In this document: positions 6,740-53,209 of the stretch, one piece after another
How positions within the stretch are numbered: position 1 is the stretch's first letter
How the letters are laid out: every line of letters begins with the position of its first letter
Virus record (IMG/VR): IMGVR_UViG_3300031784_000038
Coordinates: 1 to 57,942 of that record
Direction: 5' to 3' (one strand)
Source: a virus
Length of the DNA: 57,942 bases
The notes under the pieces: generated by a model
What the model saw: only the letters and a program-made list of their open reading frames with translations
What the model was told of the DNA's origin: nothing
Database searches by the model: none
Translations under genes and position numbers: made by a program

Positions 6740-6740
6740 A

Positions 6741-7574: not shown

Positions 7575-7576
7575 AA

Positions 7577-8839
7577 ATGAGAAAATATAAGTACGAAATA
7601 TTGCAAAAAAATATATTATCGGTTGTTTTATATAACGCTGGGCAGTATTGGTATGATAATAACCTACAGTTAGTTCCATGGTCAGCAACAACTGTACCAA
7701 CTAGTGGAACAACAGTCATGGATGTTAAATGGTATAGCGATATCACTTACACCTCTGGAGATACCATTTATTATAATGGTAAAATATATAAATCATTAGT
7801 TGTTTCAAATTTAAATAAAATACCGTCAACACAAACATCGTTTTGGGTTGAGCAACCAGAAGCGTTAACGTGGACAGACAAAGGTTATTATTATAGATGG
7901 AATGGAACATCTTGGGTTAACATTGGAAAAAATAAATCAGCTGCATATCCAGATTATGAATTACCAATACTTCTAGATTCAAAAGTAGATGAATTAGGTG
8001 TTATGGTTGGTTTTGATGGTGATATCGATCAAGTAGAACAACTTTGTAATTTTACATATAAAGCTTCTGGAAACACCGTAACTGTTTATAACACAACCAA
8101 TACAAATACTTTAAAAAGAGTCGTTGACGCAACCTTCCAAATTAATTGGGGAGATTCTACAGCCTCTTCTATTTCAATTTTAGGTAACGCAACCAAAACA
8201 TATTCAACTGCAGGTAGTAAAGTAATTTCAATTACAATGAATAGCCCTTGGAAAGTACAAACATTATCAAGGACAATAAAGCTACCTTTAGTTATCGGTG
8301 ATCCAACTAGTTTGGGTACCCTTACTTTTACCTTCCCATACACAGATTATGGTGTGGCGGCTTCAGGATCAACAAAAACACTATCGTCAACAAGTTTAAC
8401 ATTTGTTGCTGTTGGTAAAAGTAGAATTATAGAAAAAAAATTATACGGCCAAACGGCTTATACGGGTGTAACATCAACTTCACTACCTGGTACAACCTTA
8501 AGCTGTTCAAAATATACAGTTGATGGCTTAGATTATTATGATTGCTCAGACGGGGTAACCTATGTTACAGGAAAAGTGCCAAACCACATTATAAATGGAA
8601 CTTCTGGATTTACAACAGGTAACAGTACAGATTTTGCTACAGAGTATGTGGTAAATAAAATGTTAACCAGAAATGAGCATTTTTTGGGGTTTGTTTCAGA
8701 TCCATCGGTTTATTCTGACATATTTGTTGAAAGAGGTAAGATGGGGGTATCTGAATTTAATTTAAGATTAGGGGAAATTGACAATATTGGCGAATTAGAC
8801 ATATATGGAAATGGATTTTTCGTTGTGAAAAAACAATAA
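7577..8839 (+). CDS. Virion protein with CBM5/12-like and PKD-like segments
   Basis: 420 residues. Residues ~55-90 (YTSGDTIYYNGKIYKSLV...SFWVEQ) have the spacing and aromatic pattern of small carbohydrate-binding CBM5/12-type modules. Residues ~150-225 contain FQINWGDST...KTYSTAGSKVISITM, which resembles a PKD-type Ig fold (WGDG...HTYxxxGxYxVxxxV). The C-terminus (SEFNLRLGEIDNIGELDIYGNGFFVVKKQ) resembles the terminal strand region of structural proteins. Together these suggest a host-surface-binding or decoration role. The domain calls are pattern-based. Confidence 0.5.
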   Translation: MRKYKYEILQKNILSVVLYNAGQYWYDNNLQLVPWSATTVPTSGTTVMDVKWYSDITYTSGDTIYYNGKIYKSLVVSNLNKIPSTQTSFWVEQPEALTWTDKGYYYRWNGTSWVNIGKNKSAAYPDYELPILLDSKVDELGVMVGFDGDIDQVEQLCNFTYKASGNTVTVYNTTNTNTLKRVVDATFQINWGDSTASSISILGNATKTYSTAGSKVISITMNSPWKVQTLSRTIKLPLVIGDPTSLGTLTFTFPYTDYGVAASGSTKTLSSTSLTFVAVGKSRIIEKKLYGQTAYTGVTSTSLPGTTLSCSKYTVDGLDYYDCSDGVTYVTGKVPNHIINGTSGFTTGNSTDFATEYVVNKMLTRNEHFLGFVSDPSVYSDIFVERGKMGVSEFNLRLGEIDNIGELDIYGNGFFVVKKQ

Positions 8840-8844
8840 AATTA

Positions 8845-8852
8845 TATTTATT
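8845..8852 (+). promoter_or_regulatory. TATTTATT late-type promoter motif (variant)
   Basis: TATTTATT in the 24-base gap before the ATG at 8864. It differs from the recurrent TATTTATA by its last base. Confidence 0.3.
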
Positions 8853-8863
8853 ATTAAAATGCT

Positions 8864-9781
8864 ATGGCAGTAGGAAGTTACGGAACAATAAGACCAGCGG
8901 ATGTATCACCAGAAGATGTAGAAATACTACTTCACTATGCTGCGGACAGAGGTGCAACTACCGATTCAACACTAACAAAGTTGGATTCGGCAGCTATCTT
9001 ATCACCATTATATCACAATGCAAATACAACTGATGATACAAACGCTCCAAATGTGGAGGTTTTGGGTGGTATGTATACATTAAGATTAGAAAGTACCACA
9101 TTCTCCGAGTTAGGGATATACACACTTCACGTAAGACCAAAACAAATAAGAACACAAATAACAGATTGTGGTGTTTTAGCATCATTATCTTCAGTTAGGG
9201 GTATTGTAATTGATCTTGGAAACGTTGAACAAGAGGATAGATCTAAATTCGCCCCACAGGGTTTGGTTGGATATAGAGTAGAATATATAAGTGTTACTGA
9301 TAATAAAAAAGTCCAAAATTTTTATAAAATTGTAACATCTTCATTTTATTGTGAGCCAGTAACAACAAACTTAACAAATACCACACAAAAATCAGTTAGA
9401 TATAGATATTCAGACTCACCAACAAACTTAGTGTTTTTGACTGTCACCCCATCTTCTGCACCTACTAATAAACCAAATACTGTCCCATTTATTGGCCAAC
9501 CACTACAAAAAATTATACTAACAAACAGCTATTTTAATCCAACTACGATTGAGGTAGAAATGGTTGAACATGACGCATCTACGCTTGCACTTGCTCTTTA
9601 TGGTAATCAAAGTAAGGCGGTATCTTCAGGTATCTACACGATCTATGATGGCTCAAACAACATTTATAAACAGTTTAACCTATACGAAGTTAAGGACGAA
9701 TTTAATGAGACATTATATGAGATTCGTGAGGGAAGGACTGATATAGACCAAACGTTAAACTTTGACGATATTACTGAATAA
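8864..9781 (+). CDS. Virion structural protein (unassigned, tail module)
   Basis: 305 residues beginning MAVGSYGTIRPADVSPEDVEI. A beta-rich central part (MYTLRLESTTFSELGIYTLH) is followed by LQKIILTNSYFNPTTIEVEM and an acidic C-terminus (YEIREGRTDIDQTLNFDDITE). Motifs such as LGIYTLHVRPKQIRT are typical of baseplate-associated structural proteins of large phages, but no named family was recognised. The gene ends 2 bases before the next ATG, in the same operon-like run. Confidence 0.5.
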   Translation: MAVGSYGTIRPADVSPEDVEILLHYAADRGATTDSTLTKLDSAAILSPLYHNANTTDDTNAPNVEVLGGMYTLRLESTTFSELGIYTLHVRPKQIRTQITDCGVLASLSSVRGIVIDLGNVEQEDRSKFAPQGLVGYRVEYISVTDNKKVQNFYKIVTSSFYCEPVTTNLTNTTQKSVRYRYSDSPTNLVFLTVTPSSAPTNKPNTVPFIGQPLQKIILTNSYFNPTTIEVEMVEHDASTLALALYGNQSKAVSSGIYTIYDGSNNIYKQFNLYEVKDEFNETLYEIREGRTDIDQTLNFDDITE

Positions 9782-9783
9782 TA

Positions 9784-12700
9784 ATGGCAAAAAGAAAAGT
9801 TCCGAGTCAGGCGGCTAGTGGTTTTGATACGTTTAACGATAGTCTCGTTGGTAGACAAATTACCGACGGTACTAGTCAATTGACTAATACGAACTTCGCT
9901 CTTGATACGATTGTCCCAGAGAAAGACTCAAAAAAATTCCAAACTGCGCCATTTTCAGATTTTATTACATTAGAAAATCTTAAGGTTGAGGAAGATGTTC
10001 CAACAACAGTTGTACAATCTGATGGTAAAAAAAGACCAGTAAGATTTAATACAAATAAAAGAGATGCATCTAAGTCTCTTTTTGGATCATTAAGAGAAAG
10101 AATAAGAGTCTCTATTGCTAGAATTGCTAAAAATTTTCCCGGCGGTATTTTTATTGACAAAGATGCTTTAGCGTCTATTAACAGTTACACTGCTGAAAAT
10201 ATAACACATAATCCAACAACTAATACAACCACATTTAAAACTCAAGTTGGTAGATTTTTTAATCCTTTTGATATTGTATTAAAAGAACCAACAGCAAGTC
10301 AATTAATTGAAGTTGAAAATAAAATAAGAAATTTATTTTCTTCATATACAAAATATTGTATTGTAATAGAGGATAAAACTTATGCTGTAACAAGTTACGT
10401 ACAGCCAGATCAGTTTAACCAAATAACACTTGTTGTTGATGGTAAACCATTTACTGGTGCAACATATTCAGATAGTTTTATTTTAAGACCAAATGACAGT
10501 GTTGTTGAAGAATTTTATTTAGGTTTAGACGATTTAGAACAAACATTATTAAATCGAGAAACATACCCAATATATCAAGCTGGGTTTACGGTTCCTAGAA
10601 CTAGTTTAGACGAAACAAAAACAGAACTGATTTCCATATTAGTTAACTGGCCAACATCAAAAGATGGGTACAACATTCAAATTACCGGTCTTAAGTTCGA
10701 GGAATATCTAACACGTTTAAGTGACTTAGCAACTGAAATTGATAACTATAAATCCAATTTAGTTACAAGATTTCTTGTTGCGCCGCAATTATTTGAATTT
10801 GACACAGAGGATCAAAAAATTGATAAGATATTTCAATTATATGGTCAGAGCTTCGATAAAGTAAAATCTTATATTGACAATATCGCGAACATGAGAAATG
10901 TTTCTTATGACGCAATTGATAATATCCCAGATGTTTTTCTTAAAAACTTAGCAAATACACTAGGTCTTAATACCATTAATTTATTTGATCAAAAAAGTTT
11001 AGAAGAACAAATATATAAAGCTTCTTCCACTGTTTACAATGGACAAGCTATTGGTAAAAATTTAGTAGAAGCCGAACTTGAATTCTATAGAAGGTTATTA
11101 GTTAATCTAGCATTTATATATAAATCAAAAGGCACTAGAAGTAGTATTGAATTTTTCTTAAAGTTTATCGGTGCGCCAGATCCAATGGTGAAAATAAACG
11201 AATATGTTTATAAAGTAACCAGTGCGTTACCTCCATCTACTTTAGATGATCTAAATAACACATTAAATAATATTAATGTTAGTAATAGTGTAACATTTAA
11301 TAGTGATACATACACTTATACCGTTTCTTCTTTAACAGGGTTAACAACAAATAATCAACTAACCGATTACCCCATCGACGAAACAACATTATTACCTAAA
11401 GCTCCAACAACAAATCAAGAAAATGTTTTCTTCCAAATGGGGTCTGGCTGGGCAAATGTTAGCTTAGATCATAGATCTTCCGATGTCCTTGATACTGAAA
11501 ATTCAGTATTAACCGGAAGAACTAAAACGCTATTAACAACAGCAAAACCATATTCTTATGGTGAAGAGTTTTTTGATAATTACAGAACATTACCTGGCTT
11601 AGATTATGGTTTCACAATAAAAAGTGAAATTGATAATCAGCAAGGACAAATCTTAGAAGACGAAGCTCTTTCAAATTTAATTCTTAATAGAAAAAACATA
11701 AACGTATTCGTATCTGCAGCAAATGCTGTTAACTATGATATTTGGAGAAAATCTAGAGAACTTGAAGTAACTTTTGGCACAAATAGTCTACCACCACAAA
11801 CTGGTGTAACTTTTGCACAATATTTAGAAAATACCTTCTCAAATCAAATAACTAATTCAAATATAATAAGATATAAGAAGAATTATATTGCTTTAGAGGA
11901 TGTTTATCAGGATTATATAAATCAATTAGTAGCATCTGGTTATACAACTTATGATATAATATCAACATCTGATTTTGTTAATCAGATGAGCCCATATTGG
12001 TCAAATGTTTTAGAACAAATTATACCATCAACAACATTATGGATGGGGGGTAATTTAATTGAAAACAATGTTTTTGGTAGACCCAAGTTTTCATATAGAA
12101 AACCATGTAAACCATTAGAGATTGTAGAAAATTTATATCCAGAATTTGAAACAGTAATTGAAGAAGATCTTGAAACAATAATTGGAGATCCAGATAATCT
12201 AAGAGGTTTAATTGAATTTAGTGGTGTAACATTTACTTTACATATTGATATTGACGGTACTGATTATAGTGGAACGACACAAGTAGTTTTAACCGGCAGT
12301 ACCTTATTTGGTACTGGTTTTACTGCTGTGGAAAGTTGTAGTGTACTAACTTCCTCAACATCTAAAATACCACTTATTTGTGAATATAAAAATTGGATTA
12401 ATTTAAATTTAACAACAATAAAAGCCGCTTGGAAAAACGCCATAGCATCTCTTGTTGAACAAATTAATCAAACAGAAACACAATATAGTGCATTCAATAC
12501 CCCTTCATATGTTCCTGGAAATGCTATATTGTCAGGAAAAACACAATTAATATCTTATGAATTTTTCACAGATAATAATGGTGTTGAAAAAGTTAAATTT
12601 ATTGCACACACAAACTCTTCTGGAGAATGTTTAGTAAAAGATAATTTAGATTTTTATTTTGATGTTGATTACAAATATACTGAGCCAAAATGTCATTTAG

Positions 12701-14838
12701 ATTTATCATTTGATGCGTCTTGTGATGTTTATTCTGGTTATCCAACTTGTAAAGTTGCAACAGATGTTATTGTTAGCTTAACAGGTGTTACTGTTCAATC
12801 TGGTAACGATAGTGGATGGGGTGTATATGTTCAAAGAAATTGTACACCAGGAAATAACATCAGTACAGGATACCACCCAACTTATACAGATACAAGTTTC
12901 TTCCAAATTGTTGGAGAAAATTGTAAGTTCAAACTTAGTAATGTAAGAGAAGATGAGGTTATTGATTTAATTTTTACTGATGCAGCAAACTGTGATAAAA
13001 AAGTAAAAATAGAAGGACTAGCATTAAGATATGTAGAATACCCATCTGAAGTGCCTGATTTACCGTTAGTTGTTAACACTGGCTATACATTAGTACCAAA
13101 AGTACAATATAGAAACACATACAATTATGGTTTAAAACACAATACTAAAGTTATTGTTGTTAGTGGTGCTACAATTAATTCATCTACAACACCAGCAAAT
13201 ATTACTAGTTATTTAGCTGCTGGAACTCTTGTTAAGAAAGATGTTAAAGATTTAGTTAATGGAAATGTCATATTAGGTGCAACATACTTATCATGCACCA
13301 CACTTTCATCAAGCATGTTTGAATATGCTAGTGAAAACAATGATTATTCTTTTTCATATGATTATTCAACGCATACAATTAGCGATATTGATTGTTTAGG
13401 ATCTGTAAAGAAAAGTGAAATAATAGGTATGACCTCAAACGGTCAACAGGTTGTTATTGAAGTTTTACCAACAACAAAACTACGTGTTTACACAAATAAA
13501 GAGGTTGATGAAGCAACATATAGGGTATCTAAACGAGATGGTTACTTTTTTGATTCTAGATCTCCAGAGTTTTTGCAATTAAAACCAGAAACACCGGAGG
13601 AGCCTTGTTGTTATTATCCATCAGATTATTATGATACTGGTGATTTTTTAATTACAGAAAAAGGTGAATTATTAGAGGTTATTTCAGTTAATTTAAATTA
13701 CTGTGAAAATAATCTTTATTATAACATTAATATAACAGGAACACAACCTCAAAACCTAATATTGTTTAATGGTAATGATGGAACACAAGTATTAATACAA
13801 CACTCATATACTAAGTTTAATAGACTTAATATGAGCTTAAGTCAATATTATATTGATAATCAATGTTGTAAAACTGAAATTGAAGATCCTGTAAGAAATT
13901 ATACAACTGAATGTGGTGTTATAACCCCGGCCGTACCTTGTGGTAGCACATATCCAATAGTAACCCCAAGTCCAACATCTACACCTACACCAACAAATAC
14001 ATCTACCAGTACACCTACCATAACTAGCACACCAACCGCTACAAATACACCTACATCGACACCAACACCAACGTTGACTGAGACACCAACTAGTACACCT
14101 ACAAATACATCAACAAACACTGGTACGCCTACTGTAACAGAGACGCCAACTAGTACACCAACAGTAACAACAACACCAAATTGTGAATTTGTAATTGATA
14201 CAAATGTTGTGACGCTAACACCTACACCAACAACAACTTCAACATCAACACCAAATTGTGAATTTGTAATTGATACAGTTGCTGTAATTCCCACTCCGAC
14301 ACCAAGTATCACTATAACACCGACATCAACATCAACACCAAATTGTGAATTTGTTATTGATACAGTTGCAACAATTGCAACCCCAACACCGAGCGTCACT
14401 ATAACGCCGACATCGACATACACACCAAATTGTGAATTTGTTATTGATACAGTCGCAACAATTGCAACACCGACACCAAGTGTTACTATAACGCCAACAT
14501 CAACTTTTACATCTAATTGTGATTTTATAATTGATACAATTGCAATTATTGCAACACCAACACCAACAGAAACAGCTACACCAACTATAACTGAAACACC
14601 AACAACAACATCATCAGATAGTTGTGAATTTGTAATAGATATTAATTCAGTTATATCAACACCTACACCAACCTCTACCACAACGCCAACAATAACTTCG
14701 ACACCAACAATTACATTTACAGAGGGATCTTGTGATATGACTTATGAAATTGTTGAAAGTTCTCAAGGGATAATTCTTGAAAGTGGTGCAAGTTTTATTG
14801 TGGATGAAAATAATACTGACATATTAATAGAAGAATAA
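9784..14838 (+). CDS. Large tail protein with gpI-like region and C-terminal Thr/Pro repeat tail
   Basis: 1684 residues. The N-terminal third is mostly helical. Around residues 430-470 it contains [20 protein letters not shown] then [13 protein letters not shown], the pattern (R-x-L...YxxKGT..xI...L...G) of P2 gpI-like tail-tip/baseplate proteins. Residues ~780-1380 are beta-rich with many Cys ([29 protein letters not shown]). From ~1390 the protein is made of TPTPT linkers interleaved with six copies of a CEFVIDT-like core. It ends with an acidic segment ([16 protein letters not shown]). It probably bridges the baseplate to peripheral adhesins. The N-terminal assignment is by motif; the Thr/Pro tail may act as an extended stalk. 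Confidence 0.6.
13960..14730 (+). repeat. Thr/Pro repeat tract with CEFVIDT modules (copy set 1)
   Basis: Degenerate ACACCAAC-type DNA encodes TPT/STPT linkers. Six copies of a ~35-residue unit with a single Cys ([30 protein letters not shown] twice, [20 protein letters not shown]) alternate with the linkers. The same unit recurs in the two later adhesin genes. Confidence 0.8.
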
Positions 14839-15455: not shown

Positions 15456-17822
15456 ATGGCAACAATAAGATTATATAGTGCATCTGGTTTATACAACGGT
15501 TATTATGCTGATGTTGTTTTTCATCCATATAGCGGAGGAACAGCTGTTACCATCGGAACCAACGTACTTATACCTTATTTTTGGACCTCAGATTATTACT
15601 ACGGTACATACGATTTTAATTTTAAAAATGAACTTGAAGGGTTTGTCTGTAACCTAGAAATAGTTCCAGGAGTAACCCCAACACCAACCTCAACCCCGAC
15701 GATAACAATTACACCAACTGAAACACCAACAACAACATCATCGGATAGTTGCGAGTTTGTAATAGATATCAACGCGGTTATAGCAACACCAACACCAACT
15801 TTAACGCCAACTGTAACATCTACTGAAACACCAACAACAACATCATCAGATAGTTGTGAGTTTATTATTAATATTGATGCTATTGTTGCAACACCAACAC
15901 CTACCTCTACTTCAACAGTAACCGAAACACCTACTATAACACCAACATGTGATTGTCCTGAAGGATTTACAGCCACAAATGATGGGGGTGCATGTTATAG
16001 AGTATTAACATCAACCCCAACATCAATTGAAAACTTGTTAGTTGGTGATGGTGGTAGTAACTCAGCATACGGAATGTATGGTGTTAAGATATACAATGAA
16101 AATGACTACAATACTGTTGGAAATTCGATAAGTGGTAACTTAGCATATTCTGGTTATACAACGGCATATGGTAGCCCAGATACAACACCTAACGAATCAT
16201 TCTGGGCTGGTAGAATGAATCAAATTAACGTTTGGGTTGATGGTAACACGACATGGCCAAATCCAAATTATCCTGATTACGTTAGTTTCTGTGCAACATT
16301 CAATTTAACTACAACAAAAACATATTATATCGGCGTGGCTGGTGATAATGATATTACAGTTAAAATAAATTCTGTAACATTAATAAATCAAGCAGATAAC
16401 TCACCAGTAGATAATTTTAGATTCTACCACATATATCCAGTAACACTAGAAGCAGGTCCAAATATTGTTGAAATTGAAAACTGGAATAGAAGTAGTGTGG
16501 GATCGTTTGCTGCTGAGGTATATGACGATACACTAGCAACATTGACTGGGGTAACCAATGCAAGTGAATTAAATATAATGTTCTCAACAGGTGATTACTT
16601 ACCTGGTGGACCTTTGGCGGGTGAGGGATTCTGCACAAACTATAGCTGTCCAGCTGGTTATACTTTAGACACCACTGATCCAGAAAATCCTGTATGTAAA
16701 AAGATTGAGTACGTAGATTGTGGTACAATATATACCCCAACACCAACATCAACTGCAACACCAACAGTAACCCCAACCCCAACAGCAACTGAGACACCAA
16801 CAGCAACAGATACCCCAACAATTACAATTACACCAACTGAAACATATACACCAAACTGTGAATTTATAATTGATACAGTGGCAGTAATTAGTACGCCTAC
16901 CCCAACATCAACACCAACAGTAACACCAACCGTAACATCTACTGAAACACCTACAGTAACAGAAACACCTACAATTACTTATACACCAAATTGTGAGTTT
17001 GTAATTGACACAGTGGCTTTAATTACTACACCCACACCTACATCGACACCAACACCAACGTTGACTGAGACACCAACATCTACATCAACTGAAACACCAA
17101 CACCAACTGTAACTGAAACACCAACCGCAACACCAACATCAACATACACACCTGATTGTGTGTTTGAGGCTGCATTAGGTACCCCATTAGTTGTTGATGA
17201 AAACACTGAAATTAATATTTGGTTTGACGATAGCGGCTCAATGAACTCAACACTATCACCATTACAAAGTATGAGAGATACTATTTTAAGAGATTGTCTC
17301 GTTCAATTCTACAATAATGATTATAACACATATGATCAAAACGTAACGGTAAGCAACTTCTCAAGTAAATCTGGTGGTACTGAAAGAACAATGTACGTAT
17401 TGAACACAACAGGAACAACAGCTGGTATAACCAAAGTTATAAACTTAGTATTCCAAGACGAATCTTCTCCATACGCTGCTGATGGTAGCTCATTTAATAC
17501 CAGTGTCAGAACAGGAACGTATGATACTGATATAAGCGGCTTAAGATCAACGCTTGACAATGTTCCTAATAGCAGTTATTATAGAGGTATTGTGTTTAGA
17601 GTTAATACGGGTCCAAATTCATATGATGGATTTAGACAATTCTTGGTGGCGGTTAAAGATGGAACCGGTGCATACTCAGGAACAAACGGTCTATCTGATA
17701 AGAGTGAAATAACCTACATTTCAAATGTCACAGCGGGTTCAACCGCTCAATATTATGCGGATCAAATAATAACAGCACTAAACACATTGGGATATAATTT
17801 AAACCCGTGTAATCAAAGTTAA
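15456..17822 (+). CDS. Modular adhesin: Thr/Pro linkers, beta-sandwich and von Willebrand factor A domain
   Basis: 788 residues. Order: N-terminal beta domain (~1-70); Thr/Pro linkers with two Cys modules (~72-160); a short Cys-rich stretch (CDCPEGFTATNDGGACYRV); a PA14/carbohydrate-binding-like beta sandwich (~185-390, with YYIGVAGDNDITVKINSV); a second CPAGYTLDTTDPENPVCKK element; more Thr/Pro linkers with two modules; then a C-terminal vWA-like domain (~578-788). The vWA part carries a MIDAS-type D-x-S-x-S (INIWFDDSGSMNS), implying divalent-metal-dependent ligand binding. The module set and context suggest a host-binding or decorative virion protein. It starts 3 bases after the previous gene. 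Confidence 0.65.
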   Translation: MATIRLYSASGLYNGYYADVVFHPYSGGTAVTIGTNVLIPYFWTSDYYYGTYDFNFKNELEGFVCNLEIVPGVTPTPTSTPTITITPTETPTTTSSDSCEFVIDINAVIATPTPTLTPTVTSTETPTTTSSDSCEFIINIDAIVATPTPTSTSTVTETPTITPTCDCPEGFTATNDGGACYRVLTSTPTSIENLLVGDGGSNSAYGMYGVKIYNENDYNTVGNSISGNLAYSGYTTAYGSPDTTPNESFWAGRMNQINVWVDGNTTWPNPNYPDYVSFCATFNLTTTKTYYIGVAGDNDITVKINSVTLINQADNSPVDNFRFYHIYPVTLEAGPNIVEIENWNRSSVGSFAAEVYDDTLATLTGVTNASELNIMFSTGDYLPGGPLAGEGFCTNYSCPAGYTLDTTDPENPVCKKIEYVDCGTIYTPTPTSTATPTVTPTPTATETPTATDTPTITITPTETYTPNCEFIIDTVAVISTPTPTSTPTVTPTVTSTETPTVTETPTITYTPNCEFVIDTVALITTPTPTSTPTPTLTETPTSTSTETPTPTVTETPTATPTSTYTPDCVFEAALGTPLVVDENTEINIWFDDSGSMNSTLSPLQSMRDTILRDCLVQFYNNDYNTYDQNVTVSNFSSKSGGTERTMYVLNTTGTTAGITKVINLVFQDESSPYAADGSSFNTSVRTGTYDTDISGLRSTLDNVPNSSYYRGIVFRVNTGPNSYDGFRQFLVAVKDGTGAYSGTNGLSDKSEITYISNVTAGSTAQYYADQIITALNTLGYNLNPCNQS
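15672..15948 (+). repeat. Thr/Pro repeat tract with CEFVIDT-like modules (copy set 2a)
   Basis: TPT linkers with two module cores ([20 protein letters not shown] and a diverged CEFIINIDAIV). The [11 protein letters not shown] unit is nearly the same as the last unit of the upstream gene at ~14610-14660. Confidence 0.75.
16735..17155 (+). repeat. Thr/Pro repeat tract with CEFVIDT-like modules (copy set 2b)
   Basis: A second tract within the same gene, with YTPNCEFIIDTVAVI and [15 protein letters not shown] cores between TPT/TET linkers. It immediately precedes the vWA domain. Confidence 0.75.
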
Positions 17823-17841: not shown

Positions 17842-20800
17842 ATGGCAAAACAATTCACAGTAACAATATCTTCAGGAACGGCACCAGGGCCATACAACAT
17901 TTATTATGATGTTGTTGATCCGTTGAATATTGCTACGGTGGTTTCAACGTCATTACCCGCAACAGGAATAACATATTCAGATTTAACAGATATAAACGGT
18001 GTGTTAGTTTCTGTACCTGATAATGCATATAAAATAATCTTATATAACACAGATCCATATTGTTTAATTGGTGACGATTTAATTTTACCAACACCAACAC
18101 CAACTGCCACACCAACTTCAACACCAACACTTACAGCAACACCAACCGAAACACCAACCAACACTCCAACTATTACTCTTACACCAACATCAACCTATAC
18201 CCCTAATTGTGAATTTTTAATAGACACTATTGCGGTTATAGCGACACCAACGCCAACATCTACATCAACCCCGACCCCAACAAATTCTGCACCAGTAGAT
18301 ATTAATTTAAGCAATAATACAGTAAATGAAAACAGCCCAATAAACACAATTGTTGGAACTTTAAGTACTAATGATGTTGATTTAGGCGACACACATACTT
18401 ATTCCATACAATCAACTGGGGATGCGGCATCTTTTAACATAGATGGTTCTGATTTAAGAACATCCGCAATTTTTGATTACGAGAATAAATCATCATACAG
18501 TATAATCATAAAATCAACCGATGCCGGTGGATTATTTTATGATAAAGCGTTTACAATTAATGTAACAAATATTAATGAAGCGCCATATGGTTTAAATTTA
18601 AACGGAAGTATTCCGGAAAATTCACCCACAGGAACAACTGTTGGTACAATAACAGCGCTTGATCCTGATAGTGGTGATACATTTACATACGAATTTATAG
18701 ATTCATTATCTTATCCAAATAATAATAAATTCACATTAACTAGTGGAGGGGTTTTAAAGTCTGCTGAAATTTTTGATTATGAAATCCAAAATTCATATCC
18801 AATTAAAGTTCGAGCAACAGATTCTAATTCTTTAACATTTGAAGGTGTGTTAACAGCTTATGTAACAAATGTTAATGAAGCACCATATGGTTTTAGTATT
18901 TCTAATGATACTATCCCAGAAAATTCAGCAACAGGAACAACTGTTGGTATTTTAAGTGGATTAGACAATGATTCTGGAAATACATTTACTTATGCACTTA
19001 GAGATACTATAACTTATCCTGACAACAACAGCTTTATCATAAGTGGATCAACACTCAGATCAGCTGCTGTCTTTAATTATGAGGTAAAAAATGAATATTT
19101 AATTAAAATTAGAGTAACAGATCAAGGTGGGTTAACTTATGATGGTACATTATATATCTATGTTAGTAATGTTAATGAAGCACCAACAAATATTGGTTTA
19201 AGTTCATTATCAATTGAGGAAAATGTGGCAACAGGAACAACCATTGGAACATTTTCAACAACTGACCCAGACGGCGGTACATTTACATACAGTTTAGTTG
19301 ATTTAGCAAATTATCCAGATAACTCTAGTTTTAGTATTAGTGGTATAACACTAAAATCTGCAGCAGTATTTAATTTTGAAACAAAAAGTTCTTATACAAT
19401 AAGAGTCCGATCAACCGATTCAGGTGGATTAACATTTGATAAAACATTAACAATATCGATAACAAATGCTAATGAAACACCAACAGCTATTTCATTATCA
19501 TCAAATACAATAGCAGAAAATTCTGCAACCGGTACAACAATTGGAACACTATCAACAACAGATCCAGATGCTGGTGACACATTTACATACACTTTAGTTG
19601 ATTTAGCAAATTATCCAGATAACTCTAGTTTTACTATTACTGGAGCATCTTTAAAATCTGCGGCAATATTTGATTTAGAAACAAAATCTTCATATTCAAT
19701 AAAGATTAGATCAACAGATGCCGGTGGTTTAACATTTGATCAAGTATTTGCAATCTCAGTAACCAATGTTAACGAAGCACCAACAAATATTTCTCTAAGT
19801 TCAGTTTCAATTTCAGAAAATGTACCAACTGGTACAACAATAGGGACATTTAGTTCATCTGATCCAGATGCTGGCGACACCTTTACCTATGCCTTAGTTG
19901 ACACATCATCATATCCAGGAAATTCAAGTTTTTCAATTTCAGGAACAACATTAAGAAGTGCCGCGGTATTTGATTTTGAAACACAATCAAGTTATACAAT
20001 TAGAGTTAGAGCAACAGATGCTGGAGGATTAACATATGATAAATCGATTGTAATTTCAATTACTAACGTAACTTTAACGGTTGGTGTATCAACCACAACT
20101 AATGTAACATGTAATGGTGGCTCAAACGGTGTTATTACTGTTTCTGGGGTTACTGGAGGTACTGCAAGTTATACATATTCAAAAGATGGTACAAATTATC
20201 AAGCGTCAAATGTTTTCAGTGGGTTAACCGCTGGTTCATATATTTTATATGCTAAAGATTCATATGGTGAAGTTGGTAATAGTAGTGTAGTAACAGTGAC
20301 TGAGCCAACTATAGTTAGTTCAACATTATCTAGAACAAATCCAACTTGTATAGGAAGTACAGATGGTTCGATTACCGTAACATCAGCTTCTGGAGGTACA
20401 GGCTCTGGATATACCTATTCTAAAGATGGTTCCACATATCAAACCGGTACAACCTTCAGCAATTTAGGTAATGGGACATATACAATTTATGTAAAAGATA
20501 GTGCCGGTTGTGTAAGAACAAACACAATAGGTTTAGATAGAACACAAGTAACCGCAACAGTATCACAAACAAATGTAACATGTAATGGCGGTAGCGATGG
20601 ATCAATAGTTGTTTCTGATTTATCAGGAGGCCAAGGTGGTCCATACTCAACAAAATTAAATTCGGGCGGAACTTATCAAGTATTAACTACCTCTAGAACC
20701 TATTCTTCTTTATCGGCTGGTTCATATACTATTTATGTAAAAGATAGCGCTGGTTGTGAAAATACATATGCTGTAACAATAACACAACCAACTCAAGTTA

Positions 20801-22821
20801 CTGTTAGTTCATCTGGATTACAATATCCAACTTGTTGGAATAGCACTAATGCAGGGTTCACACTAAGTGCTTCAGGCGGATCTGGAGGCGGTTATGAATA
20901 TTCTAAAGATAATGGGTCAACGTGGCAAAGTAGTGGTGTGTTTACCAATTTAAGTTCTGGTGTTTATACCGTTAAATCAAAAGATGGTAATGGATGTCAA
21001 TCTTCTAGTGCGACTGTAAGTGTAACAAAATCCGCTCCAACACCAGTTGTAAATCAAACAAATGCTTATTGTAATGGCGGTACCGGCTCATTAAATGTTG
21101 TTGGCGCAAGTGGTGGTAATAATGGACCATATACAGTATCTCTTAATGATATTACTTACTACACAGTACAAAAGATTTTCAGTGATTTATCACCAGGAAA
21201 CTATACGTTATATATAAAAGATGCAACAAATTGTAAAGCATCATATACCTATGTAATTACTGAGCCATCTGCATTAACAGTAAGTGTTAATTCAGCAACA
21301 AATCCAACGTGTTGGGATGGTGCTGATGGTTCTATAACATTATCCGCGTCTGGTGGTACTGGAACAAAAACATATTCAAAAGATGGTACAAACTATCAGG
21401 CAAGTGCAACATTTAGTAGTTTAGGTACTGGAACATATGTATTATATGCTAAAGACGCTAATAATTGTGTTGCTGCAACAACACAAACTTTATCTAAATC
21501 TGCACCAAACGCAACAATATCAATTTTTAATCCAACTTGTGTTGGAGGAACAGGTAGTATTTCAGTTAATTCTGGAACAGGTGGTAACGGTGGTACTTAT
21601 CAATCTAAATTAAACGCTGGTGGCACATATGGAAATTTACCACAGGCGTACGCTAGTTTGGGTGATGGTTCATATACTATTTATGTTAAGGACGGTTCAA
21701 ATTGTGTTCAAACATACACAACTTCAATTACGGTTCCAAGTGCAGTATCATTCTATACAAATGTGGTATATCCAACTTGTTATGATAGTACAAATGGTTC
21801 AATAACAGTAATTGCAAGTGGTGGTGCTGGCTCATATCAATATTCTATTAATGGAGGATCAACATGGCAATCAAGTAATAGCTTTACTGGCTTATACTCA
21901 GCAACATATACTGTTAGAGTTAAAGACGGAAACGGATGTGAATCGTCTAATCAAAACACTAATTTAAGTAAGGCGGCACCAAGCGCAACAATAACGCATT
22001 CTAATATATCTTGTTACGGTGGTTCTAATGGTTCAATAACAATAACAAACCCAACTAGTGGTAATAGTGGACAATTAACAGTTTCATTGACTGGTGATTT
22101 CTCAGACTATTACTTATTCAATTTGGTTAATGGTGTTCCAACAGCAACATTTAATAATTTAACTTCTGGAAGTTATACGGTGTACCTTAAAGACTATAAT
22201 CAGTGTGAGGCGACATATGGTGTATACATATCAGAACCATCACAACAATATGCAACAATTAATAATGCAGTTAATCCTGGATTTTATTCCCCATCAGCTG
22301 GAAGCCTTGATATTAGTTCTAGTGGTGGTGTGTGGCCTAAGACATATAGATTATATAAGGACACTAGCTCACCATATACAACTTGCGGTGGAGATATAGT
22401 GGCAGAATATTATAGTGTTGCGTCTAGTAACCCAACAAGATCAATAACAGGTTTAACATCTGGTGGATATTGTCTTGAAGTTACTGATACAAATGGTTGT
22501 ATAACAACAAGTGGTTTAACAGTTTTAACTGATGGGGATGCTCCAGGATATTGTTATACAATGACTTACGTAACAATACCAAATGATTTATATGTAAGAT
22601 ATAGAGACGTTACAGATACGGTACAAACAGTATTAATTCAGAATTTAGCGACCATGGATAATGGTAATGGTACATATACTGTAGGTATTTGTGTTAAACC
22701 TGGATCATCATATTCTACACCAGTTTGTGTACAAGGTGGTGTTGAAGTTACTTGTTTTGATAGTTGGACCCAAGGTGGAATTTGTGAATCTGATGGTGTA
22801 TGTCTAATAGGTAGCGTATAA
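17842..22821 (+). CDS. Giant adhesin with cadherin-like and SprB-like repeats
   Basis: 1659 residues. Order: N-terminal beta domain (1-80); Thr/Pro linker with one CEFLIDTIAVIATPTPT module (~82-148); six ~98-residue cadherin-like repeats (~150-745), each with an xENxxxGTxVG start, DPDxGDTFTY, and a VTNVNEAP-type end; then about ten ~80-residue repeats (~746-1545). These begin TNVTCNGGSNGxITV and contain YTYSKDG, FSGLTAGSYxLYxKDxxGC, the signature of SprB repeats. SprB is the surface adhesin of gliding Flavobacterium. A C-terminal ~110-residue domain (LYVRYRDV...CLIG) recurs in the next gene. It is likely a long, flexible, calcium-stabilised host-contact fibre. No signal peptide is seen, which fits a virion protein. 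Confidence 0.8.
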   Translation: MAKQFTVTISSGTAPGPYNIYYDVVDPLNIATVVSTSLPATGITYSDLTDINGVLVSVPDNAYKIILYNTDPYCLIGDDLILPTPTPTATPTSTPTLTATPTETPTNTPTITLTPTSTYTPNCEFLIDTIAVIATPTPTSTSTPTPTNSAPVDINLSNNTVNENSPINTIVGTLSTNDVDLGDTHTYSIQSTGDAASFNIDGSDLRTSAIFDYENKSSYSIIIKSTDAGGLFYDKAFTINVTNINEAPYGLNLNGSIPENSPTGTTVGTITALDPDSGDTFTYEFIDSLSYPNNNKFTLTSGGVLKSAEIFDYEIQNSYPIKVRATDSNSLTFEGVLTAYVTNVNEAPYGFSISNDTIPENSATGTTVGILSGLDNDSGNTFTYALRDTITYPDNNSFIISGSTLRSAAVFNYEVKNEYLIKIRVTDQGGLTYDGTLYIYVSNVNEAPTNIGLSSLSIEENVATGTTIGTFSTTDPDGGTFTYSLVDLANYPDNSSFSISGITLKSAAVFNFETKSSYTIRVRSTDSGGLTFDKTLTISITNANETPTAISLSSNTIAENSATGTTIGTLSTTDPDAGDTFTYTLVDLANYPDNSSFTITGASLKSAAIFDLETKSSYSIKIRSTDAGGLTFDQVFAISVTNVNEAPTNISLSSVSISENVPTGTTIGTFSSSDPDAGDTFTYALVDTSSYPGNSSFSISGTTLRSAAVFDFETQSSYTIRVRATDAGGLTYDKSIVISITNVTLTVGVSTTTNVTCNGGSNGVITVSGVTGGTASYTYSKDGTNYQASNVFSGLTAGSYILYAKDSYGEVGNSSVVTVTEPTIVSSTLSRTNPTCIGSTDGSITVTSASGGTGSGYTYSKDGSTYQTGTTFSNLGNGTYTIYVKDSAGCVRTNTIGLDRTQVTATVSQTNVTCNGGSDGSIVVSDLSGGQGGPYSTKLNSGGTYQVLTTSRTYSSLSAGSYTIYVKDSAGCENTYAVTITQPTQVTVSSSGLQYPTCWNSTNAGFTLSASGGSGGGYEYSKDNGSTWQSSGVFTNLSSGVYTVKSKDGNGCQSSSATVSVTKSAPTPVVNQTNAYCNGGTGSLNVVGASGGNNGPYTVSLNDITYYTVQKIFSDLSPGNYTLYIKDATNCKASYTYVITEPSALTVSVNSATNPTCWDGADGSITLSASGGTGTKTYSKDGTNYQASATFSSLGTGTYVLYAKDANNCVAATTQTLSKSAPNATISIFNPTCVGGTGSISVNSGTGGNGGTYQSKLNAGGTYGNLPQAYASLGDGSYTIYVKDGSNCVQTYTTSITVPSAVSFYTNVVYPTCYDSTNGSITVIASGGAGSYQYSINGGSTWQSSNSFTGLYSATYTVRVKDGNGCESSNQNTNLSKAAPSATITHSNISCYGGSNGSITITNPTSGNSGQLTVSLTGDFSDYYLFNLVNGVPTATFNNLTSGSYTVYLKDYNQCEATYGVYISEPSQQYATINNAVNPGFYSPSAGSLDISSSGGVWPKTYRLYKDTSSPYTTCGGDIVAEYYSVASSNPTRSITGLTSGGYCLEVTDTNGCITTSGLTVLTDGDAPGYCYTMTYVTIPNDLYVRYRDVTDTVQTVLIQNLATMDNGNGTYTVGICVKPGSSYSTPVCVQGGVEVTCFDSWTQGGICESDGVCLIGSV
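18090..18285 (+). repeat. Thr/Pro repeat tract with CEFLIDT module (copy set 3)
   Basis: One further copy of the shared module (YTPNCEFLIDTIAVIATPTPT) flanked by TPT linkers, joining the N-terminal domain to the cadherin-like repeats. Confidence 0.75.
18290..20075 (+). repeat. Six tandem cadherin-like repeats
   Basis: Each unit is ~295 bases. The protein signatures ENSATGTTVG, DPDAGDTFTY, LRSAAVFDFE, SSYTIRVRATDAGGLT and VTNVNEAP recur. Acidic DPD and NEAP positions match calcium-binding linker sites of cadherin-like domains. Units 4 and 5 are very similar to each other (shared LVDLANYPDNSSF). Confidence 0.8.
20080..22480 (+). repeat. About ten tandem SprB-like repeats
   Basis: Units of ~240 bases share a TCNGGSxGSITV start, a GGxxxYxYSKDGxxYQ middle, and GxYTIYVKDxxGC at the end. 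The first nine keep the leading Cys; the tenth (NNAVNPGFYSPSAGSLDI) has lost it. The pattern matches the SprB repeat family of Bacteroidota surface adhesins. Confidence 0.75.
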
Positions 22822-22874: not shown

Positions 22875-23435
22875 ATGATAGTTACATTCACATTACAAAA
22901 TCAATATTCTGGCGCAACATATGTTGCTGGGCCTTTTAATATTTCAGGAACAACCAGCGGTAATGTTACCACAGAATTAGCAACAGGGGTAACAAAGGAA
23001 CAATTATTAACCGGACATACAATTACTGGTATTAGTGATCTCACAACTGGTGGTACAATCGCAAGTACCGGAATTTGTACAAATACCCAGCAATGGGAAG
23101 CTTTCCCATCCCAACCAACACCAACGCCGACAACTACATCAAGTGTAACAGCAGAATGTTGGACTGTAACATACAGTACAACTAATCCACCACCAGGTGA
23201 TTTATATGTAAGATATAGAGATTATGACGGTACCGTCCAAACAGTTTTATTAAGTAACATTGAATCAATGGATAACGGTAATAGTACAATCACAGCTGGT
23301 TTATGTGTTTCATTTAGTGGAGCTTATAGTACACCTGTTTGGGTTCAAGGTGGTGTAGAAATTACAACAGAGTGGTTATGGTCAAATGACGGAACACCTT
23401 GTACAACTAATGGAACATGTTTAATTGGTAATTAA
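22875..23435 (+). CDS. Small virion protein sharing the C-terminal domain of the giant adhesin
   Basis: 186 residues. The N-terminal ~75 residues form a short beta domain (LQNQYSGATYVAGPFNISGT). A brief TPTPTTTSS linker follows, then a ~95-residue domain (LYVRYRDYDGTVQTVLLSN, STPVWVQGGVEIT, TNGTCLIGN) that is a clear paralogue of the last ~110 residues of the preceding 1659-residue protein. The pair probably assemble through, or share, a terminal domain. A rho-independent terminator follows directly. Function is unknown beyond a likely virion/adhesin role. Confidence 0.55.
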   Translation: MIVTFTLQNQYSGATYVAGPFNISGTTSGNVTTELATGVTKEQLLTGHTITGISDLTTGGTIASTGICTNTQQWEAFPSQPTPTPTTTSSVTAECWTVTYSTTNPPPGDLYVRYRDYDGTVQTVLLSNIESMDNGNSTITAGLCVSFSGAYSTPVWVQGGVEITTEWLWSNDGTPCTTNGTCLIGN

Positions 23436-23490: not shown

Positions 23491-23507
23491 ATATTTTATA
23501 AGAGTTG

Positions 23508-23515
23508 TATTTATG
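23508..23515 (+). promoter_or_regulatory. TATTTATG late-type promoter motif
   Basis: GTATTTATG lies just before the ATG at 23520. A full TATTTATA at 23486-23493, in the terminator's T-rich tail, is a second candidate with a more usual leader length (~27 bases to the ATG). Confidence 0.4.
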
Positions 23516-23519
23516 TAGT

Positions 23520-24404
23520 ATGGGATTAAATCTAAAATTAAAAGGTATTGTTTCACCAAACCCATTTAAGTTATTATATAAAACTGGGCCCACCGCAGGT
23601 AATGAATCTGTGGTCACAACCGGGTATACATATTATCCAAATTCTGGTACAACTTATCAAGCAAGTTCTGATGGATCATATTACAACACAAACCCTATTA
23701 TTTTTAGTGGAGCGTCCTATAGTACACAATATTGGTTTAAAATTTTAGATACAGTAACCGGAGGTTATGTGATTGAAAATATTTTCACAAATCATGAGGA
23801 GGTTTATGATAATTGTATAAATTGTTGCTTATTTACTGGAGGTACATCGAATTATATTGATTGTAGATTTAGCGGTGGTTCTGCTATTAGCGATCAAATC
23901 ATTACCCCAAGCCCAACACCAACAACAACCCCTGCAGATTGTACTTTTACTGGAGGATCGTCTGAATATAATGTTATAATAACGCCAACACCAACAACAA
24001 CTACAACACCAACAACAACTACAACACCAACAACAACTACAACAACTACATCAGCAAGAATTGATTGGGTTATAGGTGCAGATTCTGGTGGACGATTAGT
24101 TATCTTAGATAAAAATGGTGCAACATTATTAGATGAAACCACATCTGCTGGAGGATCAAGAAGTGGAACTATATATGTTTTAGAAAGTTTATTACCATAT
24201 ACAATTAGAGGGATGTGGGCTAGTGGATCGGGTAATATTATAAGATATAGAGTTTGTGATATTATTGGAACATCAGAATTACATTTAAGTAGCCCGATTG
24301 ACAATCTGCTTGGAGAAGAGGATTACACACCATCACCAACACCTTTACATGTATCTGTGACATTAAGAGCTAATAACAATATACCTATTGGGTGTCCAGT
24401 ATAA
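23520..24404 (+). CDS. Virion protein with Thr/Pro linkers (unassigned)
   Basis: 294 residues from the ATG at 23520. A TTG five codons upstream would add MYLCS but lies inside the promoter-like motif, so the ATG is preferred. Residues 1-110 are a beta-rich domain (KLLYKTGPTAGNESVVTTGYTY; TQYWFKILDTVTGGYVIENI). A Cys-containing stretch follows (CINCCLFTGG; DCRFSGGS; DCTFTGGSSEYNVI), then a TPTTTTTPT linker (~155-180), and a C-terminal ~110-residue domain (IDWVIGADSGGRLVILDKNG). The Cys-TGGS units echo the CEFVIDT units of the other adhesins. Probably a peripheral virion protein. Confidence 0.5.
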   Translation: MGLNLKLKGIVSPNPFKLLYKTGPTAGNESVVTTGYTYYPNSGTTYQASSDGSYYNTNPIIFSGASYSTQYWFKILDTVTGGYVIENIFTNHEEVYDNCINCCLFTGGTSNYIDCRFSGGSAISDQIITPSPTPTTTPADCTFTGGSSEYNVIITPTPTTTTTPTTTTTPTTTTTTTSARIDWVIGADSGGRLVILDKNGATLLDETTSAGGSRSGTIYVLESLLPYTIRGMWASGSGNIIRYRVCDIIGTSELHLSSPIDNLLGEEDYTPSPTPLHVSVTLRANNNIPIGCPV

Positions 24405-24433: not shown

Positions 24434-25666
24434 ATGGCATTTAACGCTTCAGTAAATTTAGGAACAGTAGGAAACGGAATCACAGGACAAACCGTTTCAA
24501 TATCAGGATGTACAGGTGCGTCTTGTGGAAGTGGCTGTACAAGTCTAGTAACATCACAAGCGGTATCTAGTTTTCCAAAAACAATTTCATCAATACCTGA
24601 TGGAACGGTTAGTTTATTTGTTAAAGTGGACGGCGGAGATTGTTCTGGTACAACACAATGTATTTCAATAACTGGAATACCAGGTGTAACACCAACACCA
24701 ACAACAACTTCTACCACTGTTACCCCAACAATAACACCAACAACAACTACCACACCAACTACCACACCAACTACCGTTGATCCAACAATTACACCAACAA
24801 CAACTACTACTACCGTTACACCAACAATTACACCAACAACAACAATAACCCCTACTAGCTTGCCAGGATGTAGTTCTACTGTAACAGGTGAATATACTGG
24901 GCCAACGATTTATAATTACCCTGATCGTCAACTAGATTTTACAGGGGTGGCTAACGGATCGCTAATTAATTTTACGTGTACAGCAAACGATAGACCAAAC
25001 AATATTTCAATTAGAACAGATTTAACAATTATTGAAAGTACAGGATGGTTTGGTAATTCATCTGGTTATGATTCAAATGATTATTGGTACCCAACTCAAA
25101 CTGGCCCAATAACATTAACAATAACATATGATAACACCCAAACATATTACATAGATGTATTAACAGCACCAATGTTAGCTGCGCCAAATGACGTAAATGA
25201 CTATTGGGAGGTAAGTATACAATGTCTTGGTGTTCCGACGTTAACACCAACAGTAACACCAACAACAGTTTATGTATACTACAGAGCAGAAGAAGTCATG
25301 GACACTAATATATCAACAACTTATTGTAATAATTTTGGTTCAGGTGGACAAGGTTATCTAATTAACTCACCATTCTATACAACTGACGCAATTTTAACAC
25401 CAGGTACTACAACAATCTATAGTGATTATGGTTTAACAACACCTGTTGCGGGTTCTTGGTCATTAGGTAATGTAACAAGAATGGCATATATAACTGAATC
25501 AGAAAACCAAAGTGCGCAAAATACCCCAACAACAACAAATCCTAATGGTGATTTATTATATGATGGAGGTACATATAAATTTATAAGAGTAGATTCAAAT
25601 GGTGGTATTATATCAGTAGGTAATGATAGTTGTTCAGGTGGACCTGGTGGGCCTAGTGAAGCATAA
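24434..25666 (+). CDS. Virion protein with Thr/Pro linkers (unassigned)
   Basis: 410 residues. Residues 1-78 form a small beta domain with several Cys (SISGCTGASCGSGCTSLV). The following ~60 residues are almost pure TPTTTTTVTPTIT linker. Then comes a ~125-residue domain beginning LPGCSSTVTGEYTGPTIYNY, with YWYPTQTGPITLTITYDNTQ. A second short TPT linker leads to a C-terminal domain (VYVYYRAEEVMDTNISTTYC) rich in Gly and Tyr. The architecture parallels the neighbouring adhesins. Specific function is unknown. Confidence 0.5.
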   Translation: MAFNASVNLGTVGNGITGQTVSISGCTGASCGSGCTSLVTSQAVSSFPKTISSIPDGTVSLFVKVDGGDCSGTTQCISITGIPGVTPTPTTTSTTVTPTITPTTTTTPTTTPTTVDPTITPTTTTTTVTPTITPTTTITPTSLPGCSSTVTGEYTGPTIYNYPDRQLDFTGVANGSLINFTCTANDRPNNISIRTDLTIIESTGWFGNSSGYDSNDYWYPTQTGPITLTITYDNTQTYYIDVLTAPMLAAPNDVNDYWEVSIQCLGVPTLTPTVTPTTVYVYYRAEEVMDTNISTTYCNNFGSGGQGYLINSPFYTTDAILTPGTTTIYSDYGLTTPVAGSWSLGNVTRMAYITESENQSAQNTPTTTNPNGDLLYDGGTYKFIRVDSNGGIISVGNDSCSGGPGGPSEA

Positions 25667-25689: not shown

Positions 25690-27798
25690 ATGAGCTTTTT
25701 AGATAGCAGTAATTCAGAATTCTTATCAGCAAGAATAACCAGAAAGGGTAGAAAATCTATCGCTGAAGGTAATTTTGTTATAAAATATTTTCAGGTTGGC
25801 GATTCTGAATTTGATTATACTTTTAGTGGATTTACCGGGGCAGGCACAACACCAAGACAAAGGGTATTGGCGCCTATGGATGGAGATCAACATGTGAAGT
25901 ATCCCTATCTATTAACAGGTACAGATACAATCAACTATGGTAACGCTGTTGAACAATCAATAACAACCACATTAAAAAATGCAATGGGCCCAGCTGGATT
26001 CGTTACAAACTATAGACCATATGATAGTGATGTTTGTACTGGAACCACTGTTGAATGCTTAGTTAAAGAAATATCATTATCAGAAGTTGATGGAACTAAT
26101 ATTTTATCAGTTCCTAATGCTACAGGTTATTCACAGTGTGAATTCGTAACATTAGTATTTAAGAATCAATTTGTTAGTCAAAATTATGTTATAAGTGGGA
26201 CATCACAAAGCTTAGTTTATAAAATCACAAATGTTAGTCCTACAGAATTAACATTTGACAGACCGATGCCAAATCTTTCAGCGGAGACCGGATATGCACA
26301 AGTTATTTGCAATAGATGTAGTTTAGAATACCCAGAAGCACCAACAGGCTCTACGGTTTGTTCACCATTACCAGTTGACAATCTAGCACAACACGATCCA
26401 TGGACACTAGAAACAATATGGACACAAAAACCAGCTGGATTAGACGCATCAGATGAAGCATTAAGTGGTTATACTGGAACACAGTTCGCATCATTAAAAG
26501 AATACTTAGGTTATACCTCTACCGGCCAAACATTTACAAATTTAACTGGTGGGACGATTTCTAATCCAACATCATATACTAACTCATTTGGAGAAAGAAT
26601 AGATGTAAAACCAGAAGATCAAAGATGTATTGCGGTTATTCATTATTCAGAATTAGGTGACATTGTTAATGATCCAGAAAGATTTTTTAAATATGATGAT
26701 TATATTGGGAGCGAAACAGATGAAGAATATTACACATACGATCCAGATGATTTAGTTTCTGATGTTAATCATTTTGAAGTTTATATTCCTTTTATTTTTT
26801 ATCACAGAAATACCGGAACAACAATCGGCGCAAAATTTGTGATGGATACAACTGATTATTATGTTTCATCAGCAAAAAATACTAAACCAAACACAAACAA
26901 TCTTAAGTTTAGATTTTTATTAGACGAACAAGGTATTCGTGTTGGTAAAGTATTTGTTGATAAAAAAATTATTGTATTTGATGACCAAGAATTGGTGGCC
27001 GTATTAGAATATAAAACAAATAGAAAATATACATTACCAGCACCTAGATTCAACACAGTGCCATTAGATTTACCGACATTCTATGATTTAGATCCAGTAG
27101 TTCTTACAGGAGAAACCGCTTGGGTTACATATATGTTCCAATACACTGGTGACACCTATAGAAATGGTATGCATTGTAACTATTATGGAAAGATCACAGG
27201 AACAACAAATTCAAATATTGGTTTTAGATTTGAAACCGGTGATTTTAAATTTTTAAGTAATTCATCATATTTTACCGGGTTTACAGCAAATAAATTTTAT
27301 GCATTAGTTCAAGTTGTACAAACAGGTAATCCACCATCATCAGACGGATGGAAAATTATTGACTTAACAACACAAATATCTGGACACACTGTCGGTAACC
27401 TTATTTCTAAAACAAATATGTGTGGTTACCAATTTGTTATCACCGGAGATATGTATGATAGTGCCATTACTGCACCTACATATGATATAGAAAATTATCT
27501 TGGCCCATTACCAAATATCGATCAACCAACATTACCACAGTTTGGAGATTCACAACCTTTCCCAGGTGCAGTTCAATTAACAAGGGCAACTGACGTAGAG
27601 GTTTTAAATTTCATGGTTAATCTACCTGGAACACAATTCTTAACAAGCCAGAACCCAACATATGTTACTGGGCAACCAAAAAGAATAACAGAGGTAGCAT
27701 TATTAAATGAAAATAAAGAGCCTTTAGTTACAGCTAAATTAGCTAAACCGTTAGAAAGAACAGGTAACCAGGTATTTTCCGTTAGAATTGATTTCTAA
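25690..27798 (+). CDS. Large virion structural protein (tail-fibre-attachment-like N-terminus)
   Basis: 702 residues. The N-terminus (FLSARITRKGRKSIAEGNFV followed by YFQVGDSEFDY) resembles the N-terminal attachment segment found in phage fibre and baseplate-associated proteins (A-R-I-T-x-x-G-R-x-x-I-A-x-G...x-x-x-G-D). The rest is beta-rich, with a central acidic stretch (SETDEEYYTYDPDDLVSDVN) and a C-terminal TEVALLNENKEPLVTAKLA strand region typical of structural proteins. It is the last gene of the tail module before the replication genes. Confidence 0.5.
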   Translation: MSFLDSSNSEFLSARITRKGRKSIAEGNFVIKYFQVGDSEFDYTFSGFTGAGTTPRQRVLAPMDGDQHVKYPYLLTGTDTINYGNAVEQSITTTLKNAMGPAGFVTNYRPYDSDVCTGTTVECLVKEISLSEVDGTNILSVPNATGYSQCEFVTLVFKNQFVSQNYVISGTSQSLVYKITNVSPTELTFDRPMPNLSAETGYAQVICNRCSLEYPEAPTGSTVCSPLPVDNLAQHDPWTLETIWTQKPAGLDASDEALSGYTGTQFASLKEYLGYTSTGQTFTNLTGGTISNPTSYTNSFGERIDVKPEDQRCIAVIHYSELGDIVNDPERFFKYDDYIGSETDEEYYTYDPDDLVSDVNHFEVYIPFIFYHRNTGTTIGAKFVMDTTDYYVSSAKNTKPNTNNLKFRFLLDEQGIRVGKVFVDKKIIVFDDQELVAVLEYKTNRKYTLPAPRFNTVPLDLPTFYDLDPVVLTGETAWVTYMFQYTGDTYRNGMHCNYYGKITGTTNSNIGFRFETGDFKFLSNSSYFTGFTANKFYALVQVVQTGNPPSSDGWKIIDLTTQISGHTVGNLISKTNMCGYQFVITGDMYDSAITAPTYDIENYLGPLPNIDQPTLPQFGDSQPFPGAVQLTRATDVEVLNFMVNLPGTQFLTSQNPTYVTGQPKRITEVALLNENKEPLVTAKLAKPLERTGNQVFSVRIDF

Positions 27799-53134: not shown

Positions 53135-53154
53135 AAAATAAAAGATAAAAATAT

Positions 53155-53178
53155 AAGGGGACTTCGGTCCCCTTTTTT
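53155..53178 (+). terminator. Rho-independent terminator
   Basis: The stem AAGGGGAC (53155-53162) / GTCCCCTT (53167-53174) with TTCG tetraloop is followed by TTTT. Confidence 0.9.
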
Positions 53179-53209
53179 ATTTCTTGTTTATTAAATCCAA
53201 ATTTTTGTG

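Follow-up and report, generated by a model that had tools for sequence, protein, structure and literature searches.

The SprB adhesins with which Flavobacterium and further Bacteroidota glide are cell proteins exported by the type IX secretion system (T9SS), in which SprB repeats follow one another in tandem within a long, extended architecture. A long chain of Ig-like domains also makes up GhpA, the adhesive grappling hook of Aureispira, which is a cellular, T9SS-secreted heptamer (PMC11205867). On phage particles, Ig-like domains are found in T4 Hoc and decoration proteins and in the neck whisker protein gp24 (PDB 3shs, 5lxk and 9occ), all of them short. Tandem cadherins are encoded by large phages of Caulobacter, Brevundimonas and Rhizobium (CcrPW, Kabachok). 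The adhesin described here, encoded within a viral record of 57,942 bases (the window, i.e. the whole stretch of DNA analysed), shares the tandem repeats and extended form of the gliding adhesins and the long Ig-like chain of GhpA. Unlike the Bacteroidota adhesins, it lacks export signals, is joined to cadherins as well as to an anchor found only in phages, and has repeats that group with those of other phages; unlike Hoc, decoration and whisker proteins, it has a long repeat array, a stalk and an exchangeable tip. Over its six cadherins, it is 26–35% identical to the proteins of the CcrPW/Kabachok-type phages, in which no SprB repeats were matched and whose hosts, unlike the one predicted below, are Alphaproteobacteria.

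The adhesin gene and the domains that it encodes are arranged as follows:

17842–22821, + strand: adhesin gene, ATG start, open over 1659 codons, 1659 aa
17842–18090, + strand: N-terminal anchor domain (residues 1–83)
18091–18288, + strand: Pro/Thr-rich stalk with one 'NCEFLIDTIAVIATPTPT' unit (residues 84–149)
18289–20073, + strand: cadherin repeats C1–C6 (residues 150–744, about 100 aa each; PF00028)
20074–22530, + strand: SprB repeats S1–S10 (residues 745–1563, 77–95 aa each; PF13573 and unit alignment)
22531–22821, + strand: C-terminal tip domain, Cys-rich and exchangeable (residues 1564–1659)

The original prediction, made from the sequence, placed an adhesin composed of cadherin-like repeats and SprB-like ones at 18290–22480, an interval that covers the repeat region well, and proposed a search with PF13573 and cadherin families. 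This search gave scores above both curated cut-offs, and the proposed composition is well supported. The six cadherin-like repeats were recovered by PF00028 as six stretches with 180.8 bits (E = 6.4e-54; cut-off 28.8 bits), whereas PF13573 matched six stretches above threshold with 122.6 bits (E = 4.5e-36; cut-off 28 bits), single repeats scoring up to 39 bits. The estimate of about ten SprB-like repeats also held, as our own alignment and HMM resolved ten units (S1–S10, residues 745–1563), six of which pass PF13573 alone. Part of the SprB region additionally matches phrog_26672, named 'virion structural protein'. Motifs of Ca2+ sites (xEN, DxD, F[DN]xE, TDxGG and NxNE) were present in all six cadherin units; in C2 (TDSNS) and C6 (NVT) they are partly lost. 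The last SprB repeat had been described as having lost its Cys; the first Cys of S10 is indeed absent (VNPGF), but S10 retains other cysteines. Its closest relative, in L037, still has the first Cys (VNPPC), and the loss is a lineage-specific change. An assembly artefact was ruled out, because three longer contigs (121, 89 and 82 kb) encode an identical protein, and two more (118 and 44 kb) a relative that is about 55% identical.

An AlphaFold2 model of S8–S10 together with the tip was all-beta, with a mean pLDDT of 86.9 (about 73–98 for S8–S10 and about 75–82 for the tip); the anchor N-domain was modelled with a pLDDT of about 84–92. The best PDB matches of the S8–tip model included three GhpA fragments (9fls, 9flv and 9flw; best match E = 3e-8, 17% identity) and SiiE, a giant adhesin of Salmonella, with E-values from 3e-8 to 2e-6. 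The TM-scores of about 0.3 reflect the multi-domain nature of these chains, and the matches therefore support the type of domain rather than the whole shape. In the structure prediction that had been suggested as a check, the SprB model resembles the Ig-like rods of GhpA and SiiE. The anchor N-domain itself gave no structural match that was convincing, those in the viral library following the cadherin part, and the tip had neither a Pfam match nor a significant PDB match; weak matches of a tip profile to envelope polyproteins (best E = 0.034) were treated as chance.

When run against the PDB, a narrow SprB profile found nothing, and a broader one reached GhpA and RemZ as well as decoration and whisker proteins of phages (E = 0.018 to 4e-6 for 3shs, 5lxk and 9occ). 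For the Ig-like domains of other phages, a role in keeping virions close to such surroundings as biofilm matrix has been put forward. The matches to decoration or outer-capsid domains (5lxk, 3shs) and to the neck whisker protein (9occ) hence lend some weight to an accessory decoration, in which low-specificity Ig-like SprB and cadherin domains would hold virions in the vicinity of biofilm matrix, algal mucilage or other particles, host specificity residing in other fibres. The presence of a separate tail-fibre gene with an S74 chaperone points the same way, but we regard this reading as rather unlikely in view of the gene position and tip exchange presented below.

The window genes recur almost unchanged, except for the fibre genes at the 3' end, in the 121-kb contig (G001), which extends 65 kb further upstream. 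This contig encodes a tail sheath, a tail tube, a gp6-like baseplate wedge, a UvsX-like recombinase and a family B-type DNA polymerase, a gene set that, with its sheath and tube, identifies the virus as a contractile-tailed phage. No close cultured relative was found, the nearest polymerases being those of Salinibacter and Nostoc/Anabaena phages at about 24–28% identity. Moraphages, which are aquatic jumbo phages infecting Bacteroidota, overlap partially with this phage in gene content (PolB, sigma factor, gp6-like wedge and primase) and provide a lead only (PMC12619734). The sigma-70 factor of the window, at 38069–38878, contains regions 2 and 4 (PF04542 and PF04545). Shine-Dalgarno-like motifs are depleted, preceding 4 of 81 genes (5%, compared with a background of 10%); the leaders of the phage's genes are A-rich, and signal peptides in other genes of the phage end in SFSQ or VSTAQ. 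Depleted Shine-Dalgarno motifs, leaders rich in A and signal peptides with a terminal Q are Bacteroidota traits, and the phage probably infects a member of this phylum. It is presumably a large, uncultured freshwater phage. By their IMG sample ids, several related contigs come from aquatic metagenomes, which would also favour retention on matrix or particles.

The genes that place the adhesin within its neighbourhood are the following:

12–605, + strand: C-terminal part of a baseplate wedge (gp6/J-like) gene, by identity to the G001 gene
9784–14838, + strand: conserved baseplate/tail-cluster gene ending in PT stalks, on the 5' side of the cassette, by synteny
15456–17822, + strand: PT-stalked neighbour with a putative C-terminal VWA-like domain (DDSGSM, MIDAS-like); phrog_15511, unknown function
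22875–23435, + strand: neighbour with its own N-domain, a short PT linker and the adhesin's tip domain, without repeats
25690–27798, + strand: conserved gene without an assigned function, flanking the cassette 3'

The full-length wedge gene in G001 matches the baseplate wedge families phrog_6 (E = 4e-19) and phrog_219 (E = 2e-18). The fragment at 12–605 therefore assigns the locus to the baseplate cluster, with the adhesin gene downstream of the wedge gene and of a conserved gene run (666–14838) and upstream of 25690–27798. Counterparts of the latter gene, with 65–89% identity in L037, L011, L043, L044, L045 and L081 and 46% in L049, always lie downstream of the adhesin in these seven relatives. 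Gene order is kept at least partly in L037, L011, L041, L043, L044, L045, L049 and L081; in L086, L088, L091, L056 and L060, the adhesin is flanked by different genes of this baseplate/tail cluster. Like modular side fibres, the adhesin is thus encoded within a tail/baseplate cluster. This position supports the original description of a virion protein and suggests that the product resides on the particle, and it speaks against a purely decorating function. The adjacent ORF 15456–17822 is 79% conserved in the relative G005; it gave no Pfam VWA match and no PDB match, and its putative VWA identity is a reading of the DDSGSM motif. The stalk type of the adhesin recurs in ORFs 9784–14838, 15456–17822, 23505–24404 and 24434–25666; a Pro/Thr-rich stalk is also present in ORF 40436–40726, and in several of these six ORFs, the adhesin included, the stalks are punctuated by similar 18-residue units. 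The N-domain of ORF 24434–25666 (24434–24700) shows weak similarity to the SprB units (about 31–35%, E = 4e-4 to 2e-5, unmasked) and is perhaps a derived SprB-like domain.

Bacterial SprB proteins mostly have signal-peptide-like starts and/or T9SS-like tails. In the adhesin, no signal-peptide-like N-terminus was detected, nor any T9SS sorting domain of the CHU_C/TIGR04131 type in tests that do detect the one of LR756502.1. At the protein level, the adhesin consequently lacks what defines SprB-type T9SS gliding adhesins. LR756502.1, a 642-kb huge phage, is, within the annotated phage collection, the only other record that was found with SprB repeats:

LR756502.1 514378–519390 (L012:8192–13204): SprB protein, 1670 aa

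This protein has a signal-peptide-like start, 13 SprB repeats, a PKD domain and a T9SS type B domain (TIGR04131, CHU_C), and is predicted to be a host-exported adhesin rather than part of the particle. A Bacteroidetes host has been predicted for genomes of this size, in a paper whose main text mentions neither type IX nor gliding (PMC7162821). Because the LR756502.1 protein carries export signals and the window adhesin does not, SprB repeats seem to serve phages in two ways or more. By analogy with this huge phage, the window protein might also be a moron adhesin, synthesised in the infected cell and presented on its surface instead of on the virion. This is highly improbable for a protein that has no signal-peptide-like start, is encoded among tail genes and bears a phage-only anchor, and host-exported cargo was ruled out here by the absent sorting domain. 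For viral metagenomes, the adhesin shows that SprB repeats are an unreliable sign of either host origin or T9SS export.

The anchor N-domain was present in 42 viral loci, on contigs of up to 251 kb, and was usually followed by a Pro/Thr stalk. A three-row profile of this domain, which detected all four large viral records used as positive controls, had no match among the 396 Bacteroidota genomes sampled (0/396) or among 151 genomes of one family (0/151). The anchor is 83–84% identical in G005, and in that relative the VWA-like neighbour gene has an N-terminus that shares 49% identity with it. Scanning for SprB repeats yielded 50 viral loci, and 25 distinct complete viral proteins combine cadherins with SprB repeats, 19 of the 25 with the anchor N-domain. 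Among these 25 proteins, the number of cadherins is always 3 or 6, the number of SprB repeats resolved by our own HMM ranges from 4 to 14, and no CHU_C-type motif was found by a regular-expression test. This type of adhesin seems common in uncultured aquatic phages.

The original prediction had also proposed a comparison of individual repeats with those of the host by phylogeny. In a tree of 406 viral and bacterial repeats, the viral/bacterial label changed 24 times, compared with a mean of 131 in shuffles (minimum 121). For each of the ten window repeats, the nearest repeat of the other phages (0.12–0.71), mostly one at the same array position, was closer than any bacterial repeat (1.14–1.87). 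Sampling of bacterial repeats was biased to those resembling the phage query, and the test for recent capture is therefore conservative. The best bacterial SprB matches were below 50% identical over long alignments and came nearly all from Bacteroidota, and the SprB proteins encoded at 50 bacterial loci showed no match to cadherins. Both the window and G005 have ten SprB units, S1–S3 being 72–82% identical to their counterparts. The tree and the similarity to the repeats of other phages thus speak against a recent capture from the host; the suggested domain capture would fit only as an ancient event. The adhesin is an old, widespread phage design and not a recent theft from the host.

The claim that adjacent cadherin units are nearly alike applies to part of the array: C4–C6 are 66–76% identical to one another (71–77% at the nucleotide level), whereas other pairs share 42–58%. 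At matched positions, however, the window and L037 agree at 81% (C4), 87% (C5) and 89% (C6). As these units are closer to their L037 counterparts than to each other, the six-cadherin array predates the split between the window and L037, which speaks against the recent expansion that had been proposed.

The separation of phage and bacterial repeats also bears on a link with gliding. Since SprB repeats are common to gliding adhesins, the phage array might bind SprB-type filaments of the host, homotypically or through their glycans, so that virions ride or dock on them, which we consider improbable. It is similarly improbable that virions would be carried on the gliding conveyor to an injection site, where the tip would then recognise a secondary receptor. 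Host-surface mimicry and interaction with the gliding machinery, both raised in the original prediction, gained no positive support from the analysis. Gliding proteins do matter for phage adsorption in flavobacteria, where SprB/RemA may be receptors (PMC13288928), and swarming Capnocytophaga transports phages (PMC11205867). Nonetheless, the low identity between phage and bacterial repeats and their largely separate groups on the tree argue against such docking. The phage transported by Capnocytophaga was lambda, which is not known to carry SprB.

The feature of this protein most relevant to its function, absent from the original prediction, is an exchangeable tip on a conserved, phage-specific anchor. 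Between the window and L037, the anchor is 98% identical, the cadherins 69–85% and the SprB units 59–91% with almost no gaps, whereas the tips share 15%. In G005, the anchor is retained and the tip is unrelated to that of the window. Tips fell into five classes, the largest of which is loosely joined by single linkage. The tip of the adhesin is 55% identical to the C-terminus of ORF 22875–23435, a gene whose G005 counterpart keeps the N-domain and has a different C-terminus. Receptor-binding fibres typically combine a base that is conserved with an end that is exchanged, and the alignments point to the same organisation here, a constant N-terminal region that would serve for attachment and a variable C-terminal tip. 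Such exchange of a discrete tip suggests selection on specificity, for which a pure decoration would have no need.

We therefore favour the view that ORF 17842–22821 probably encodes a tail- or baseplate-borne adhesin, a side fibre or whisker-like structure whose tip contacts the host. The phage-specific N-domain would dock on the particle and the flexible Pro/Thr stalk would provide reach; the six cadherin domains, predicted to bind Ca2+, would form a stiff rod, and the ten SprB Ig-like domains a long spacer, possibly with a weak affinity of its own for glycans. The exchangeable tip of roughly 95 residues would then make the specific contact with the surface of the host. Its putative receptor-binding role rests on position and exchange, because its fold matches nothing known. 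The S74 tail fibre could be the main receptor-binding protein, the role of the adhesin then being secondary.

In databases, 'SprB repeat [uncultured Caudovirales phage]' and similar names have already been assigned automatically. No paper on SprB repeats in virions was found in the open literature searched, and searches combining SprB with virion or cadherin returned nothing relevant, many matches concerning sprB of Bacillus SPbeta. Modular phage adhesins are known, but the combination of a gliding-adhesin repeat with cadherin rods on a phage-only anchor is undescribed in the open literature searched. The adhesin offers a concrete handle on host recognition by large Bacteroidota phages.

The T4-like long tail fibre gene with the S74 chaperone occupies 53283–57443. 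The window diverges from the otherwise near-identical G001 at about 51700–57942, within the tail-fibre genes 50486–53134 and 53283–57443, a possible strain-level change of the long fibre.
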